Shown: in pieces, positions 1,512 to 51,320 of the stretch | How the letters are laid out: the number at the start of each line of letters is the position of its first letter | How positions within the stretch are numbered: the first letter of the stretch is position 1 | DNA from: Pseudomonas sp. PDNC002 | GTDB taxonomy: Bacteria > Pseudomonadota > Gammaproteobacteria > Pseudomonadales > Pseudomonadaceae | Reading direction: 5' to 3' | DNA length: 64,000 bases | Assembly: GCF_016919445.1 (NCBI RefSeq) | Contig: NZ_CP070356.1 | Location: 2,202,001 to 2,266,000 of the forward strand | Made by a program: the position numbers and the translations under genes | Notes under the pieces: model-generated | Seen by the model: only the letters and a program-made list of their open reading frames with translations | Told to the model about the DNA's origin: nothing | The model's database searches: none

Positions 1512-1572
1512 GTGCGCGTCATTCCGATACGGACGATGTGCTCGCTCCTACAGGGTGGCACCGATGCTCCTG

Positions 1573-1725
1573 TAGGAGCGGACCTTGTCCGCGAAGGCCG
1601 TATAAACGGCCATCGGTATTCCCAGGTGGAACGGGCAAATCGGTGATGGATTTCGCGGATAGGATCCGCTCCTACAGGTGAGACACCGTGTTCGCCTCGC
1701 GCGTAGGAGCGGACTCCGTCCGCGA
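1573..1725. repeat. Cluster of three REP sequences (TAGGAGCGGA family)
   Basis: Three copies of a 22-bp sequence lie between cyoE and ndh. One is at 1573-1594 in forward orientation, one at 1653-1674 in reverse orientation (a variant with GGATAGGATCC in the core), and one at 1704-1725 in forward orientation (core GGACTCCGTCC). Each carries an internal imperfect palindrome such as GCGGACCTTGTCCGC. The first two form an inverted pair of the REPIN type. The same family recurs at about 26.8, 46.0 and 60.2-60.3 kb. No RAYT transposase is present in the window to explain its mobility. Confidence 0.85.
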
Positions 1726-26079: not shown

Positions 26080-26250
26080 TTTTCAAGGATTCGTGGCGGG
26101 CCCGATGGCTCGCCTCGTCACAGGGTTTCGCCAGCAGACCGATGTCCGTGGGTCGCACGGATGCACCCCATCTCACGGGCATCGGTTTGTCGGTGAATTC
26201 ACTTTGCAGAGACAGTTGTTTTCGGCCGAGATATTGGTGCCGATGCTTCC

Positions 26251-26740
26251 CCCTCACCCCAGCCCTCTCCCTCAGGGAGAGGGAGCCGATTGTGCCGGCT
26301 GAAGCCATGAATTCATCCTGCACCGAACGGTCCCTCTCCCGCTTGCGGGAGAGGGCTAGGGTGAGGGGCTCTTGTAGGAGCAACTGTCCTCTTCTGGCGG
26401 GCCGTGCCAATGGTTTGCCCTCTCCCCAACCCTGGCTCCGCGCCCCCGCTCCGAAGGGAGAGGGAGCGCGTCCTGCCGGCTGAAGCCATGATTTCATCCT
26501 GCACCGAGCGGTCCCCTCTCCCGCTTGCGGGAGAGGGCTAGGGTGAGGGGCTCTTGTAGGAGCAACTGTCCTCTTCTGGCGGGCCGTGCCAATGGATTGC
26601 CGTCTCCCCAACCCTGGCTCCGCGCCCCGCTCCGAAGGGAGAGGGAGCAGGTCGTGCCGGCTGGCGCCGAAGTTTCATCCTGCACCGAACGGTCCCCTTT
26701 CCCGCTTGAGGAGCGGGGCGCGTAGCCAGGGTTAGGGAGA
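26251..26740. repeat. Tandem array with 182-bp period built from the CCCTCACCC element
   Basis: This 738-base gap holds no gene. About two and a half copies of a unit repeat with a 182-base period: TTCATCCTGCACCGA is at about 26312, 26494 and 26674, and CTCTTCTGGCGGGCCGTGCC is at 26389 and 26571. Each copy contains paired CCCTCTCCC / GGGAGAGGG arms and GGGTGAGGGG ends. Copies differ by a few substitutions and single-base indels. Single, non-tandem relatives occur near 51.2 and 60.4 kb. It is too irregular and too long in period to be a CRISPR array. Confidence 0.85.
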
Positions 26741-44844: not shown

Positions 44845-46884
44845 ATGCGTTATTCGTCGCTTGTGGACAGGATGGTCGGACCCGGCGTTGCCGCCTGGGA
44901 CATTCACTATGCCGCGATCGCCGCGCAGCGCGCGGGGCGGGATGTGATCGTGCTGAGTGTTGGCGATCCGGACTTCGCCACGCCGGACTTCATCACCGAA
45001 GCCGCCGTCACGTCGCTGCGCGCCGGCGACACGCACTACAGCGACGTGGCCGGCAAGCCCGAGCTGCGCCAGGCCATCGCCGCGCTGCACGAACGACGAT
45101 GCGGGCAGACGGTGGCGCCGGAGAGCGTCATCGTCGTCGCCGGGGCACAGAACGGGCTGTTCGCCGCCGCGATGTGCCTGCTCGAGAAGGGCGACGAAGT
45201 CATCGTGTTCGACCCTGTCTACGTCACGTACGAAGCCACCCTGAAGTCCACTGGCGCCACGCTGGTTACCGTTCCAACCCGTCCTGACACCGGCTTCCGC
45301 CCGCAGGCCGCCGACCTGGCCGCTGCGATCACCCCGCGCACCAAGGCCATCTTCCTCGCCAACCCGAACAATCCCACCGGCGTCGTACTCGATCGCGAGG
45401 AGCTGCTGACCATCGCCGAGCTGGCGCACGCCCACGATCTCTGGGTGGTGGTGGACGAGGTCTACGAAGGGCTGACCTTCGAGCGCGAGCACCAGAGCTT
45501 CGCCGCGCTGCCGGGCATGGCCGAACGCACCCTGAGCATCGGCAGCCTGTCGAAATCCCATGCGATGACCGGCTGGCGCACCGGCTGGATCATCGCCAAC
45601 CCGACGCTGGTCGGGCACCTGGAAAACCTCGCGCTGAACATGTTCTACGGCCTGCCGGGCTTCATCCAGGAGGCTGCGCGCGTCGCCGTTGAGCGCCACG
45701 ATGAGGTGGTGGCGTCGATGCGCGAGATCTATCGCCGCCGGCGTGACCTGGTGGTAGCCGCGCTCAGCGACTGTCCGCGGGTGAAGGTGCTCAGCCCCGA
45801 GGCCGGCATGTTCGTGATGGTGGACGTGCGCGACACCGGCCTGAGTTCGCTGGACTTCTCCTGGCAACTGTTCCACGCCACCGGCGTTTCGGTGCTCGAC
45901 GCGGCGGCCTTCGGTCCGCAGGCGGAAGGCTTCGTGCGGCTGTCATTCGGCCTGAGCGACGAGAGCATGGCCGAGGCCTGTGCGCGGATCATTCGCTTCG
46001 TCGAGTCGCTCCCCGCCAAGGCAGCAACGGTAGGAGCGGACCTTGTCCGCGAAACCAATCCCGGCGTGGCGGCTGATCGCGGACAAGGTCCGCTCCTACT
46101 AGAGCCTGCCGCGACCAAGCCGGTGATCGAGGTGCGAGATATCCACAAGCGCTTCGGCGATTTCGAAGTGCTCAAGGGTGTGTCGCTGTCGGCCCGCGAG
46201 GGCGAGGTGATCTCGCTGATCGGCGCCAGCGGCTCGGGCAAGAGCACGCTGCTGCGCTGCATCAACATGCTGGAGATTCCCAACCAGGGCTCCGTCACCG
46301 TCAGCGGCGAGACCATCGGCCTCACCCGTAATCGCCAGGGCGAACCGATGGTGGCCGACCAGCGGCAACTCACCCGTATCCGCTCGCAGCTGGGCATGGT
46401 GTTCCAGAGTTTCAACCTGTGGCCGCACCGCACCGTGCTGGAAAACCTCATCGAGGCGCCGACCTTCGTTCTCCACGAGAGCAAGGCCGAGGCCCGCGAG
46501 CGTGCCGAGGCGCTGCTGGAACGCGTCGGCCTGGCCGAGAAGCGTCACGAGTATCCGGCCTTCCTCTCCGGCGGCCAGCAGCAGCGCGTGGCCATCGCGC
46601 GCGCCCTCGCCGTGCGGCCTAAAGTGATGTTGTTCGACGAACCGACCTCGGCGCTCGACCCGGAACTGGTGGGCGAAGTGCTGCGGGTGATCCGTTCGCT
46701 GGCGGAAGAGGGGCGGACCATGATCCTGGTCACCCACGAAATGGCCTTCGCCCGCGATGTGTCCAGCCACGTGGCGTTCCTTCACAAAGGACTGATCGAA
46801 GAGGAGGGGACTCCCGAAGAGGTGTTCTCGCGGCCGCGCAGCGAGCGCTGCCGGCAGTTCGTCAACGCGCACCAGAATCGCTGA
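44845..46884 (+). CDS. Fusion of AruH-like aminotransferase and amino-acid ABC transporter ATPase
   Basis: The uninterrupted 679-codon frame has two complete domains. Residues 1-392 form a fold-type I aminotransferase very like AruH, the arginine:pyruvate transaminase (start MRYS, AAWDIHY, LSVGDPDF, PLP Lys237 in SLSKSHAMTGWR). Residues 425-679 form a HisP/AotP-type importer ATPase (Walker A GASGSGKST with Lys466, signature LSGGQQQRV near 575, Walker B VMLFDEPTSALDP near 597). Residues 396-418 of the linker are encoded by a perfect inverted pair of REP sequences read in frame. No ATG begins the ATPase, but a GTG at 46123 could start a separate protein. A binding protein and two permeases follow. 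Confidence 0.85.
   Translation: MRYSSLVDRMVGPGVAAWDIHYAAIAAQRAGRDVIVLSVGDPDFATPDFITEAAVTSLRAGDTHYSDVAGKPELRQAIAALHERRCGQTVAPESVIVVAGAQNGLFAAAMCLLEKGDEVIVFDPVYVTYEATLKSTGATLVTVPTRPDTGFRPQAADLAAAITPRTKAIFLANPNNPTGVVLDREELLTIAELAHAHDLWVVVDEVYEGLTFEREHQSFAALPGMAERTLSIGSLSKSHAMTGWRTGWIIANPTLVGHLENLALNMFYGLPGFIQEAARVAVERHDEVVASMREIYRRRRDLVVAALSDCPRVKVLSPEAGMFVMVDVRDTGLSSLDFSWQLFHATGVSVLDAAAFGPQAEGFVRLSFGLSDESMAEACARIIRFVESLPAKAATVGADLVRETNPGVAADRGQGPLLLEPAATKPVIEVRDIHKRFGDFEVLKGVSLSAREGEVISLIGASGSGKSTLLRCINMLEIPNQGSVTVSGETIGLTRNRQGEPMVADQRQLTRIRSQLGMVFQSFNLWPHRTVLENLIEAPTFVLHESKAEARERAEALLERVGLAEKRHEYPAFLSGGQQQRVAIARALAVRPKVMLFDEPTSALDPELVGEVLRVIRSLAEEGRTMILVTHEMAFARDVSSHVAFLHKGLIEEEGTPEEVFSRPRSERCRQFVNAHQNR
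46031..46098. repeat. In-frame REP inverted pair inside the fusion gene
   Basis: Bases 46031-46052 and 46077-46098 are perfect 22-bp reverse complements of the TAGGAGCGGA...GTCCGCGA family, separated by 24 bases. Each arm carries the inner palindrome GCGGACCTTGTCCGC. Both arms are translated as part of the linker; the TAG that begins the element is out of frame. Confidence 0.95.
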
Positions 46885-46953: not shown

Positions 46954-47739
46954 ATGAGCAAGAAAGGTCTGTGCAAACTGATGGTGGGTGCGGCGATGCT
47001 GATGGCCGGCGCGGTGAGCGCGCAGGCCGAGACGATCCGCTTCGCCCTGGCCGCCGAGCCCTATCCGCCGTTCTCGCAGAAGCAGCCCGATGGCAGCTGG
47101 ACCGGCTTCGAGCCGGACCTGATCCACAAGGTCTGCGCCGAGATGAAAGCCCAGTGCGAGATCGACGAAGTGGCCTGGGACGGCATCATCCCCTCGCTGC
47201 TGGCGAAGAAGATCGACGTGATCTTCAACTCCATGTCGATCACCGATGAGCGCGAGAAGCAGATCGCCTTCAGTCGCCCCTACTACGACACCCCGGTGGC
47301 CGTCGCCGCGCCACAGGCGGTGGACGTGCAGGTCACCCCCGAGGGCCTCAAGGGCAAGGCCATCGGCGTGCAGATCTCCACCGTCAGTTCCAACTACCTG
47401 AAGAAGTACTACGAGAAGATCGCCGACGTGCGCTACTACGACACCCAGGACTCGGTGAACGCCGACCTGGTGGCCGGGCGCATCGACCTGATGATGGCCG
47501 ACGGTATCGCCGTGGCTTCCTTCGTCAAGTCGCCGGACGCCCAGGCCGCCGGCATCGTCAACAAGGGCGAGGTGAAGTACGACCCGATCTTCGGCCGTGG
47601 CGTCGGCGCCGGCCTGCGCAAGGACGACACCGCGCTCAAGGCGAAGCTCGATGATGCCATCGGCAAGCTGCTCGCCAGCGACGACTACAAGGCATTGTCG
47701 GACAAGTATTTCGGCATGAGCGTCGCGCCCAAGCAGTAA
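46954..47739 (+). CDS. Periplasmic basic-amino-acid or opine binding protein (SBP family 3)
   Basis: This 261-residue exported protein (leader MSKKGLCKLMVGAAMLMAGAVSAQA) belongs to solute-binding family 3, like ArgT/AotJ and the opine binders OccT/NocT. The start of the mature part, TIRFALAAEPYPPFSQKQPDGSWTG, and the segments GIIPSLLAKKIDVIFNSMSITDEREK and NADLVAGRIDLMMADG are characteristic. The ATG follows AGGGGATC. It lies 70 bases after the aminotransferase-ATPase gene and 53 before the first permease. Specificity for arginine, ornithine, lysine or a derivative is inferred from the family and the AruH-like partner. Confidence 0.88.
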   Translation: MSKKGLCKLMVGAAMLMAGAVSAQAETIRFALAAEPYPPFSQKQPDGSWTGFEPDLIHKVCAEMKAQCEIDEVAWDGIIPSLLAKKIDVIFNSMSITDEREKQIAFSRPYYDTPVAVAAPQAVDVQVTPEGLKGKAIGVQISTVSSNYLKKYYEKIADVRYYDTQDSVNADLVAGRIDLMMADGIAVASFVKSPDAQAAGIVNKGEVKYDPIFGRGVGAGLRKDDTALKAKLDDAIGKLLASDDYKALSDKYFGMSVAPKQ

Positions 47740-47792: not shown

Positions 47793-48515
47793 ATGGAGAA
47801 CGCCATGCAAAGCATCTTCGACCTGATCGGATTCGGCGCCACGGGCTGGGGCCCGGCGCTGCTCAAAGGGCTGCTGGTCACCCTGCAGATTTCCGTCGGC
47901 GCCTTCCTGGTTGGCATGCTGATCGGCCTGGGCGCGGCGAGCGCCAAGATCGGCGGGCCCTGGCCGCTGGCGATGCTCGCGCGCGGCTACACCACGCTGT
48001 GCCGGGCGGTGCCGGAACTGTTGCTGATCCTGCTGCTGTTCTACGTCGGCTCCATGGGCCTGAACCAGTTCTTCGCCTGGCTGGGCTACGGCGAGGTGAA
48101 GCTCAACGGCATGATGGTGGCCATCGTCGTGCTCGGCCTGGTGCAGGGTGCCTACGCCTCGGAAATCTTCCGTGGCGCGATCCAGTCGATTCCCTTCGGG
48201 CAGATCGAAGCGGCGCGCGCCTATGGCATGCACGGTTTCGGCCTGTTTCGTCGCGTGACCTTGCCGATGATGGCGCCCAACGCGCTGGCCGGCATGGCCA
48301 ACCTGTGGGTCAACCTGATCAAGGACAGTGCGCTGATCAGCGTGGTCGGCACCAACGAGCTGCTCTACACCGCCAAGCAAGCCGCCGGATCGACCCGGCA
48401 CTACCTGACCTTCTACCTCACCGCGGCGGCGCTGTACTACGTGCTCACCGTGCTTTCCAACCTGTTCGCGGGCTACCTGGAGCGGCGTTTCCGTCGCTGG
48501 ATTCCGGCGGTCTGA
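47793..48515 (+). CDS. Amino-acid ABC transporter permease (HisQ/OccQ type)
   Basis: This 240-residue permease has five hydrophobic helices and the EAA loop YASEIFRGAIQSIPFGQIEAARAYGM near residues 127-153. It pairs with the second permease and uses the ATPase domain of the upstream fusion protein. Met1 or Met5 could be the start; the first gives a usual length. It belongs to the polar amino-acid family (HisM/HisQ/ArtQ). Confidence 0.92.
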   Translation: MENAMQSIFDLIGFGATGWGPALLKGLLVTLQISVGAFLVGMLIGLGAASAKIGGPWPLAMLARGYTTLCRAVPELLLILLLFYVGSMGLNQFFAWLGYGEVKLNGMMVAIVVLGLVQGAYASEIFRGAIQSIPFGQIEAARAYGMHGFGLFRRVTLPMMAPNALAGMANLWVNLIKDSALISVVGTNELLYTAKQAAGSTRHYLTFYLTAAALYYVLTVLSNLFAGYLERRFRRWIPAV

Positions 48516-48528
48516 GCGAGGCGCGGCG

Positions 48529-49278
48529 ATGAACGAACACTGGCTATTCGTCTACGGGGCTCTGTTGCTGAAAGGCCTGGGCACCACCCTGGTGATCCTG
48601 CTGATTTCCGCCATCCTCGGCTTTGCCCTGGCACTGGTCGTGGCGCTGGCGCGGATGTCGCGCAACTTCCTGGTCTCACGGCTGGCGCTGGCGTACACCA
48701 GCGTGATCCGCGGTACACCGCTGCTGGTGCAGATCTACATCTTCTACTACGGCCTGGGCAGCCTGTTCGCGCAGTTCCCGCTGATTCGCGGCAGCTTCCT
48801 CTGGCCGTACCTGCGCGATGGCTTCTGGTACATCGTCATCGCCCTGATTCTCTCGGTGGGCGCCTACGTCGGCGAGGTGGTGCGCGGCGGCCTGAAGGCG
48901 GTGCCGCGTGGTGAGCTGGAGGCCGCTTCGGCGTTCGGCATGAACCGCACGCTGGTGCTCTACCGCGTCTGGCTGCCACGTGCGATCCGCCTGCTGTTGC
49001 CGACCCTGGCGGGGGAGACCGTGATGCTGCTCAAGTCCACCGCACTGGCCTCCACCATTGCCGTGGTCGACCTGCTGGGCGCCGCCAACGTGGTGCGCGC
49101 GCAGACCTTCCAGGTGTACGAGCCGCTGTTGCTGGTGGCGGCGATCTATATCTGCCTGACCTTCATCATCGAGGCGCTGTTCGCCGTGCTGGAACGCACC
49201 ACGCCGGTTCGCCGCGAAACGCAGAAGCCGGTGCAGCGATCATGGTTCGGTAAACGTCGTGCGAGAACGGCGGTTTGA
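48529..49278 (+). CDS. Amino-acid ABC transporter permease (HisM/OccM type)
   Basis: This 249-residue permease has five helices and the EAA loop GEVVRGGLKAVPRGELEAASAFGMN near residues 115-140. It follows the first permease by 13 bases. Together the two form the heterodimeric membrane channel of the importer. The C-terminal tail is basic (KPVQRSWFGKRRARTAV). It is the last gene of the plus-strand transport unit, and the 146-base gap to the tetR stop contains only an imperfect hairpin-like sequence and no gene. Confidence 0.92.
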   Translation: MNEHWLFVYGALLLKGLGTTLVILLISAILGFALALVVALARMSRNFLVSRLALAYTSVIRGTPLLVQIYIFYYGLGSLFAQFPLIRGSFLWPYLRDGFWYIVIALILSVGAYVGEVVRGGLKAVPRGELEAASAFGMNRTLVLYRVWLPRAIRLLLPTLAGETVMLLKSTALASTIAVVDLLGAANVVRAQTFQVYEPLLLVAAIYICLTFIIEALFAVLERTTPVRRETQKPVQRSWFGKRRARTAV

Positions 49279-49424: not shown

Positions 49425-50048
49425 TCAGGCGTAGGCGCCGCGACGCAGGCCCTCTACCCAGCAGCGGCTGAGTTCCAGGCCGTCCGCGGCGCTGAAGGTG
49501 GTGGGATTCAGACACCACTCCAGCCACAGCCCGTCGAGCATGGCGGAGAGGCCGATGGCGGCCAGGCGCGGACGCGCCACCGTGAAGCCCTCGGCGCTGG
49601 CGAGGTCGCTGATGAGTTTTTCCAGGATCCCGAGGTACGTGTGGTAGCCGCGCTCGTGGGCTTCGTTCACCGGCGGCGAGTGGCGGATCAGGCTCCAGAA
49701 CACCACCCAGGGACTGAGCAGGTCGGGGTCCAGCACCTGGGGCGAGAAGGAGCCGGTGAGGAAGGCTTCCATGCGTGCGGCGGGATCGCTGCCGACGGCG
49801 TCGACCTGCTGGTAGAGCGCCTGGGTCACTTCGCCGGCGAGGGTTTCGTAAGCCTGGGCGACCAGCGCGTCGATGCTGCCGAAGTGATGGTTCACCAGGC
49901 CCACGGCGACGCCGGCTTCCTTGGCAATGCGGCGCACGGAAATGCCCGCGTGGCCATCGGCGACCAGGCACTTGAGGCAGGCGCGTACCAGGTGGTCGCG
50001 ACGTTCCTCGGAGGTGGCGCGCTGGGCTTTCTGGCGGGGCATATCCAC
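49425..50048 (-). CDS. TetR family regulator (BetI-like)
   Basis: This 207-residue regulator has an N-terminal helix-turn-helix (ISVRRIAKEAGVAVGLVNHHFGSIDALVAQAYE, residues 36-68) and a C-terminal effector domain that resembles the BetI subgroup (SPWVVFWSLIRHSPPVNEAHERGYHTYLGILEKLI). It is divergent from the deacylase gene, with 105 bases between starts, and convergent with the transporter genes. It is therefore well placed to control the deacylase and perhaps the transporter in response to the imported compound. No operator palindrome could be assigned with confidence. Confidence 0.85.
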   Translation of the reverse strand: MDMPRQKAQRATSEERRDHLVRACLKCLVADGHAGISVRRIAKEAGVAVGLVNHHFGSIDALVAQAYETLAGEVTQALYQQVDAVGSDPAARMEAFLTGSFSPQVLDPDLLSPWVVFWSLIRHSPPVNEAHERGYHTYLGILEKLISDLASAEGFTVARPRLAAIGLSAMLDGLWLEWCLNPTTFSAADGLELSRCWVEGLRRGAYA

Positions 50049-50153
50049 GGTGCGACGTCCTTTTGCGGCGTGCCGGAAACCGGCGACTGGCTTCGATACT
50101 AGGAGGCGCCGACGAAGATTTCCATGGGCGATTCGGACAGAGGAGAGGACTTG

Positions 50154-51167
50154 ATGATCGAGGATGTGTCCTTCAGCGTACCCGGTGACTCGGGCGCAGA
50201 GCTACGCGTTCTGGCGTGGCGTATCGATGGTGGCAAACCGGGGCCCAGGGTGCACCTGCAGGCCGGTGTGCATGCCGACGAGATCGCCGGGATGCTGGTG
50301 CTCCACGAACTATTGCCGCGCCTGCGCGAGGCCGCCGAGCGCGGGGCGCTCAATGGCAGCGTGACTGTGGTGCCGCAGGCTAATTCCATCGGCATCGGGC
50401 AGTTCCGCCAGGGGCGGATTCTCGGTCGCAACCACGACTCCACGTCGCGCAATTTCAACCGGGGCTTCCTCGCCTCGGCGGCGGCCACGGGGACGCTGGA
50501 CAACCTTTCGTTGTGGCAGAAGCGCCTGGCCGAATTGGCGGCGCCGGCGGATATCGTGCTCGACCTGCACACCGACGACGAGGCGCTGCAATACGTCTAT
50601 GTCCACGAGTGCTTCTGGCCCGGCGCGCAGGACCTCGCCGCGGCCCTCGGTGCGGAGTTGGCGATTATCTGGGAGGGCGATGGCGACGGCGCTTTCGAGG
50701 AAGTGGTGATCGCGCCATGGCTCGCCGAGCAGCGCTTCGACGGGCGCCTGGTGGCCACCGTCGAGCTGCGTGGCCAGGGTGATGTAAGCGATGCGCTGGC
50801 GCAGCAGGACGTCGACGGCCTTTACCGCTTCCTCGGTGCCCGCGGCGTGGTGGACGACGCTGGGCCGCTGCCAGAGTGGAAAGGAGTCGCGACCCCGATG
50901 GGCTTCATGGAGACGGTGTTCGCCCCGGCCGCCGGCGTGCTGGTGTTCGAGCGTGAGCTGGGCGAGTATCTCGAGGCGGGCGAGCGCTTCGCACGCATCA
51001 TTTCGCGCCCTGGCGACGCCAGTAGCGAACACATCCTGCGGGCGCCGCAGAGCGGATTGTTCGCCACCCGTTACCGTGACCGGTTGATTCCCCAGGGGGC
51101 CATCGCGGGCAAGTTCACTGGTACAGCGCAGTCGAGCACCTGGAGCTCGGGGGCGCTTGATCCGTAA
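50154..51167 (+). CDS. Succinylglutamate desuccinylase/aspartoacylase-family zinc deacylase
   Basis: This 337-residue M14-like deacylase has zinc ligands visible as His40 and Glu43 (GVHADEIAGM) and His139 (LDLHTDDEAL). The family includes AstE and aspartoacylase, which hydrolyse N-acyl amino acids. A conserved RNFNRGF segment, here SRNFNRGF near residue 100, binds the substrate carboxylate. The C-terminal part (VFAPAAGVLVFERELGEYLEAGERFARI) is the usual lipoyl-like beta barrel. The ATG at MIEDVSFSV has AGGAGAGG ahead of it. Next to an amino-acid importer and an AruH-like aminotransferase it probably deacylates the imported substrate. Confidence 0.85.
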   Translation: MIEDVSFSVPGDSGAELRVLAWRIDGGKPGPRVHLQAGVHADEIAGMLVLHELLPRLREAAERGALNGSVTVVPQANSIGIGQFRQGRILGRNHDSTSRNFNRGFLASAAATGTLDNLSLWQKRLAELAAPADIVLDLHTDDEALQYVYVHECFWPGAQDLAAALGAELAIIWEGDGDGAFEEVVIAPWLAEQRFDGRLVATVELRGQGDVSDALAQQDVDGLYRFLGARGVVDDAGPLPEWKGVATPMGFMETVFAPAAGVLVFERELGEYLEAGERFARIISRPGDASSEHILRAPQSGLFATRYRDRLIPQGAIAGKFTGTAQSSTWSSGALDP

Positions 51168-51187: not shown

Positions 51188-51320
51188 CCCTCACCCCAAC
51201 CCTCTCCCAGAGGGAGAGGGGGCAGATTGTGCCGCCTGACGCTGTGGTTTCATCCTGCACCGAACGGTCCCCTCTCCCGCTTGAGGAGCGGGGCGCGCAG
51301 CCAGGGTTAGGGTGAGGGGC
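51188..51320. repeat. CCCTCACCC-type dispersed element (single copy)
   Basis: The element opens with CCCTCACCCCAACCCTCTCC, has AGAGGGAGAGGG, then the TTCATCCTGCACCGAACGGT core, and closes with GCCAGGGTTAGGGTGAGGGG. The ends are inverted relative to each other. The core and right half match the repeat unit of the 26.3-26.7 kb array. It lies between the deacylase gene and prfC and carries no gene. Confidence 0.8.

Follow-up and report, generated by a model that had tools for sequence, protein, structure and literature searches.

A single gene of the window, the 64,000-nucleotide stretch of Pseudomonas sp. PDNC002 that was analysed, encodes a protein in which an aminotransferase is fused to an amino-acid importer ATPase. 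Residues 396-418 of this protein are encoded by a REPIN, a pair of inverted REPs separated by a spacer. It is very likely that the REPIN entered the linker in frame when the protein was already fused. The fusion has a wider distribution than the repeat, and the linkers of relatives suggest that the fusion is most likely the older of the two.

Domain Structure of the Fused Gene

The fused gene (44845..46884, plus strand) starts with ATG and encodes 679 aa, comprising a class I/II aminotransferase and a polar amino-acid importer ATPase. The aminotransferase domain occupies residues 33-382 (44941..45990, plus strand; Pfam Aminotran_1_2, 240 bits) and the ABC ATPase domain residues 443-602 (46171..46650, plus strand; Pfam ABC_tran, 124.6 bits). 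Among 38 aligned homologues, the SLSKS motif with K237, the PLP-lysine motif of the aminotransferase domain, is invariant, and so are GASGSGKST, LSGGQ, MLFDEP and H631 in the ATPase domain, which are Walker A, the signature, Walker B and the H-loop, respectively. This invariance suggests that both halves are competent. The initial annotation had placed an aminotransferase and an amino-acid-importer ATPase in a single frame, which is borne out by the Pfam domains, the motifs and the 679-aa ORF.

The best PDB match is 1b0u, the histidine permease ATPase, with the E-value 2.9e-98 over residues 428-674. The score for the HisP equivalog is 365.6 bits against the curated NCBIfam cut-off of 466 bits, and the protein is thus not assigned to it. 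The ABC_tran domain with its motifs, together with an adjoining family 3 binding protein and two permeases, places the C-terminal half among the polar amino-acid ABC importer ATPases. For the N-terminal half, no aminotransferase equivalog scored above its cut-off among the best 25 of 295 families listed. Some homologues are annotated in their source as AruH (arginine:pyruvate transaminase), an identity that would call for arginine transaminase activity, and some carry the database name "polar amino acid transport system ATP-binding protein/arginine:pyruvate transaminase".

The two domains are joined by a linker at residues 393-423 (46021..46113, plus strand), which has pLDDT <50 (block means 40, 26 and 27) and no secondary structure in the AlphaFold2 model. 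Residues 1-21, 33-43, 237-243 and 601-604 of the model are also below 50, so low confidence is not peculiar to the linker, and with a pTM of only 0.56 the relative placement of the domains is not predicted. The dN/dS values are 0.092 for the aminotransferase, 0.055 for the ATPase and 0.459 for the linker (105 pairs from 15 loci), the last value being derived from a loose alignment.

A REPIN Inside the Linker

The REPIN is located at 46030..46099 (plus strand, 70 bp in total). Its arms, 46030-46052 and 46077-46099, are 23 nt each, are 100% complementary and are separated by a gap of 24 nt. Codon 396 starts at 46030 and the last base of the repeat is the first base of codon 419; thus, residues 396-418 (VGADLVRETNPGVAADRGQGPLL) are wholly REP-encoded. 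The initial description of an inverted REP pair with perfect arms and a 24-bp spacer, coinciding with residues 396-418, stands, except that the arms are 23 bp long and not 22 bp. Its remark that the TAG in the arm is out of frame was also correct, as neither of the two TAG triplets, at 46031 and 46100, is in frame, and the reading frame supports its proposal that part of the linker is translated from the REP pair. Ribosomes would then translate through the 23-bp hairpin.

The predicted RNA fold has an energy of -62.5 kcal/mol, compared with -32.45 +/- 3.25 kcal/mol in 200 shuffles (z -9.25). The 21-bp REP arm is present in 230 exact copies (108 + 122) in the 6.39-Mb genome, and its reversed control in none. 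Judged by the z value of the fold and by the copy number against the control, the inverted repeat is far beyond chance.

The assignment to REPINs is based on two inverted REPs with a spacer that can form a hairpin, on the high copy number of the exact arms, and on a putative RAYT gene of this genome that has the same REP on either side. REPINs are usually extragenic, whereas the linker copy sits within a gene. As intragenic REPs are on record (PMC3733652), the linker element is named an intragenic REPIN.

The REP Family and Its RAYT in the Genome

REPINs were surveyed by pattern in the window and in 33 stretches around candidate sites, the sites being taken from 40 scored of 309 candidates. 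This revealed 47 REPINs, of which 12 are crossed by a frame that stays open for 200 codons or more. The 13 such frames at the 11 sites other than the linker have no Pfam match. A frame with known Pfam domains therefore crosses only one REPIN of the 47, the linker copy, with short or Pfam-less genes possible elsewhere, and landing in frame appears to be rare. A second REPIN in the window (1572-1675) has similar REP arms and a longer spacer, and no open frame of at least 200 codons crosses it.

A Y1-transposase ORF of 176 residues (PF01797 above cut-off) was found at 1399-1926 of locus L157 (G000:C1, near 3672900-3673430). REPs of the linker type are located at both of its edges, at L157 1369 and 1909, in opposite orientation. 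REPs at both edges of a Y1 transposase are the arrangement described for REPs and their RAYTs in the available text of PMC2817692. This ORF is likely the RAYT of the linker REP family.

Distribution of the Fusion and the Age of the Repeat

The best 120 of 7991 homologues are all fused, with 99-100% of the query covered. The full-length fusion was found in 21 of 25 genomes of the genus, in 53 of the 398 genomes sampled from the family, representing 3 of 19 genera (E <=1e-180), and at the class level in one of 369 genomes, that of PDNC002 (E <=1e-165); each of these counts includes the PDNC002 sequence. A search that reads through stops detected no internal stop in any of the full-length matches from the genus (21/21) or the family (53/53). 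Individual loci were parsed under the requirement of a stop-free frame and both motifs, and 98 of 102 passed, so that the open frame in these 98 is partly built in. In the four unparsed loci, L012, L067, L079 and L093, a single frame likewise covers both halves, with altered motif letters.

A REP arm is recognisable in the linker of 19 of the 21 fusions from the genus (18 by pattern, and L093 by eye). The other two, L104, in which a decayed remnant is seen by eye, and L109, have no recognisable arm. Outside the REP-bearing clade described below, 68 loci were named (L023-L090), and the REP ends GTAGGAGC or GCTCCTAC are present in none of the 66 that were parsed, whose junction segments are 61-68 residues long. 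A loose one-arm pattern also matched the REP-less loci L024, L026-L029 and L053, where the phase differs and the GTAGGAGC end is absent. The best inverted-repeat score reaches 12 in the REP-less outside loci (L089) and ranges from 8 to 25 within the clade, with 23 for PDNC002; the clade members with a degraded or absent repeat, L015, L020, L097, L104 and L109 (8-9), overlap the REP-less range.

A gene tree was built with the linker omitted and was rooted at the midpoint. Its 31 rows include 4 of the 61 loci L030-L090; 11 identical sequences were merged, and L012 and L093 are absent. All REP-bearing rows fall into one clade of 20 rows with support 100/99, of which 18 have a REP, one has a decayed REP and one (L021) has none. 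Further REP-less fusions lie outside the clade. The REP-less fusions outside the clade, and L021 inside it, indicate that the repeat most likely came later than the fusion. The absence of the REP from the clade member L021/L109 requires a loss or a second insertion.

The initial annotation had suggested that the repeat may have created the fusion. In such a case, an insertion would have replaced the stop codon and the intergenic region of two adjacent genes. The position of the REP exactly between the two domains agrees with such an origin. The fused relatives without REP, which stand across from the REP clade on the tree and occur once within it, and the presence of the fusion in three genera argue against this origin and make it highly improbable. 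All 66 parsed outside loci are REP-less fusions, and this origin is rejected unless they, with their REP-less linkers, arose independently. The comparison of the locus in related genomes that the annotation had called for thus revealed fusions without REP, and an origin of the fusion from the repeat is not supported.

A candidate for an unfused aminotransferase-ATPase pair at G018:C11 was rejected. Its 6.5-kb stretch contains a HisP-like ATPase ORF alongside permeases and a binding protein; inspection by eye recognised no ORF for an aminotransferase there. L122 and L123 were left out of this comparison.

One Protein or Two

The GTG at 46123..46125 (plus strand) was considered as an internal start of the ATPase, and its identity as a start codon is not conserved. 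In the 98 parsed loci, some genomes being represented twice, the homologous codon is ATG in 66, GTG in 17, GTC in 14 and GTA in one. A valine codon that is not a start codon (GTC or GTA) is thus present in 15 of 32 REP-clade loci, a count in which PDNC002 appears twice and the REP-less L021/L109 and the decayed L104 are included. All 66 parsed loci outside the clade (L023-L090) have ATG, suggesting that it was once a start codon there. These ATGs look like a fossil start of a formerly separate ATPase gene, and they are possibly still in use as the ATPase start. Judging from these codons, the codon at 46123 is free to be a non-start codon in the lineage of PDNC002.

A free ATPase made from GTG 46123 beside an aminotransferase part, which had earlier been left open, is disfavoured by the non-start codons in 15 of the 32 clade loci, and no purine-rich ribosome-binding site is visible by eye in the 21 bases upstream in the PDNC002 gene. 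The GTG of this gene and the ATG in all outside loci speak for such a pair of products, which is nevertheless considered unlikely. In all 98 parsed loci the length of the linker is divisible by three, with 16 different lengths, as determined by a parser that required an open frame.

A positive role of the hairpin in the mRNA, for instance in slowing ribosomes or shielding an RNA end and so raising or lowering the output of ATPase, is likewise improbable. The hairpin is very stable, as the z value above indicates, and REPs have been hypothesised to stabilise mRNA (PMC3733652, in the text available). The inverted repeat is, however, degraded or absent in the close relatives L015, L020, L097, L104 and L109, and the REP-less fusions manage without a hairpin.

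Turnover of Repeats in the Linker

REP types in the linkers were labelled by eye from their DNA as A (GGACCTTGTCC), B (GAGCTTGCTCG, with or without an insert), C (GGACTCCGTCC) and D (GGGCCCTGCCC). Each type has tens to hundreds of exact copies in at least two of the 25 genus genomes, and the insert-bearing form of type B, present in 21 genomes, has 3-50 copies in each of them. Type D exceeds 5 copies only in the genomes G001 and G003, both of which have D linkers, and G002 has 5 type-D copies and a degenerate, D-like linker. In PDNC002, type A of the linker is also the commonest of the four counted in the genome (A 230, B 105, C 75, D 0). A general rule that the linker holds the commonest genomic type fails in G023, where the linker is of type A (A 140, B 695).

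The five linker states (A, B, C, D and none) require 9 changes on the gene tree, the decayed L104 being omitted. Of the 31 clade loci that were parsed, in which some genomes are represented twice, 28 have a left arm, and the reading phase of the REP is identical in all 28. In the proteins P0028 (named P. nicosulfuronedens) and P0034, no REP is visible in the linker and a different dispersed repeat is read there. Copies of this repeat are found in the window at 26240-26712 and 51189-51287, and it is translated as LSLRSGARSQG or similar.

Long flanking recombination was rejected as the cause of type switching, because identity in flanking windows of up to 150 bases differs by at most 0.016 between same-type and different-type pairs (14 loci, types A, B and C). 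Most type-B pairs are somewhat more similar over the 150 bases next to the junction than elsewhere (for example, 0.953 and 0.953 vs 0.914 for L016-L018), and the start of the ATPase is more conserved in all pairs, not in type B alone; a short-tract exchange at the linker is thus conceivable. Conversion of only the arms between types A and C was not shown. The mean spacer score is 0.43 within type A, 0.35 within type C and 0.03 between them, the last being within the range of unrelated spacers: type-A spacers score -0.04 +/- 0.11 against 40 unrelated genomic spacers, and 32% of these scores are as high as A vs C. The scoring covered types A and C, and the type-B linkers L096 and L099 were missed by the pattern. 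A donor copy for the linker spacer was not found when the four type-A linker spacers were compared with 40 other distinct genomic REPIN spacers (best score 0.27).

In-place conversion, exchange between strains and repeated insertion are all possible ways in which the linker repeat swaps. As a tentative reading, held at somewhat below even chances, the linker may be a landing and exchange site for mobile palindromes, in which four REP families, as well as the unrelated dispersed repeat of two proteins, have been swapped in place and always in frame between strongly constrained domains. The replacement of REPs by transposition or gene conversion would then be recorded within a translated gene that tethers a transaminase to an importer motor.

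The Importer Cassette Downstream

The fused gene is followed by a family 3 solute-binding protein gene of the lysine/arginine/ornithine type (46954..47739, plus strand; 220.2 bits vs the cut-off 256.35) and by the genes of a HisQ-like importer permease (47793..48515, plus strand) and a HisM-like importer permease (48529..49278, plus strand), both below cut-off. A TetR-family regulator with a BetI-type C-terminal domain (49425..50048, minus strand) and a protein with an AstE/AspA-type deacylase domain (50124..51167, plus strand) are encoded further downstream. The binding protein and the two permeases are directly 3' of the fusion in 77 of the 78 loci, out of 80, with more than 2.6 kb of downstream sequence. 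The sole exception, L052, has all of the genes and failed the test of adjacency distance or coverage. A homologue of the AstE/AspA-type deacylase is present in 77 of the 80 named loci. This deacylase could remove the acyl group from an imported N-acyl amino acid ahead of transamination.

No separate ATPase ORF was found among the cassette genes in the window, and the fusion is therefore likely the ATPase subunit of the importer. Other importer-type ATPases, with about 53-66% identity, are present in the genus genomes searched. The substrate of the importer may be a basic or acylated amino acid.

Proposed Origin and Role of the Linker Repeat

The in-frame insertion into an already fused protein can be described as follows. 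The RAYT would have moved the repeat into the linker, and as the linker is predicted to be disordered, the repeat would have been tolerated there. Acting as the ATPase subunit of the importer, the fusion would position the transaminase at the cytoplasmic side of the transport complex, where an imported basic amino acid may be transaminated on entry. The REP peptide would serve as a neutral tether. The prediction is thus that the protein tolerates the repeat as a passenger and that the fusion did not arise through it.

The linker provides a well-sampled example in which a mobile, extragenic repeat turned into protein sequence. A review of 1988 reportedly asks in its title whether REPs are moved by transposition or exchanged by gene conversion. 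With the fusion preceding the repeat and with several REP types at one site, the linker offers a natural test between the two. The fusion itself, known from three genera, covalently joins an aminotransferase to its likely importer ATPase and is a candidate for uptake-coupled metabolism.

Comparison with Known Systems

The ATPase half is similar to the HisP-type polar amino-acid importer ATPases, as indicated by its best PDB match, 1b0u. Unlike these, the fusion bears an N-terminal aminotransferase and scores below the HisP equivalog cut-off. Neither a published description of an aminotransferase-ATPase fusion nor a publication on a REP in this linker was found in the literature search.

The REPINs of P. 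fluorescens SBW25, as presented in the available part of PMC3116915, are also inverted REP doublets with a spacer, in high copy number and with a proposed mobility by RAYT. They are treated there in extragenic space, whereas the linker copy is within a reading frame. The classic parallel is that of the Rickettsia palindromic elements (PMC2229807, available part), which are likewise palindromes read in frame within conserved genes. They are 105-146 bp long and belong to another host; the linker element is a REP doublet of 70 bp that matches the REPs of its host genus, and a Y1 transposase is encoded in the same genome. The linker REPIN works like a Rickettsia palindromic element and is not a member of that group.

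A close similarity is to the intragenic GTAG-type REPs. The available text of PMC3733652 describes REP dimers wholly inside ORFs, states that a REP inserted into a flexible linker or loop may be neutral, and reports that recB of two Xanthomonas species holds different REPs at about the same site. A REP pair inside an ORF, the position in a linker and differing REPs at one site are thus shared features. The main text, as available, has no mention of an aminotransferase or an ABC transporter, the list of target ORFs being supplementary. The present case differs from those described there in the fused enzyme-transporter, and in the four REP types and the second repeat family at one linker. Intragenic REPs as such are therefore already described, and what appears to be new is a REPIN in a conserved enzyme-importer fusion, with the repeat in its linker turning over.
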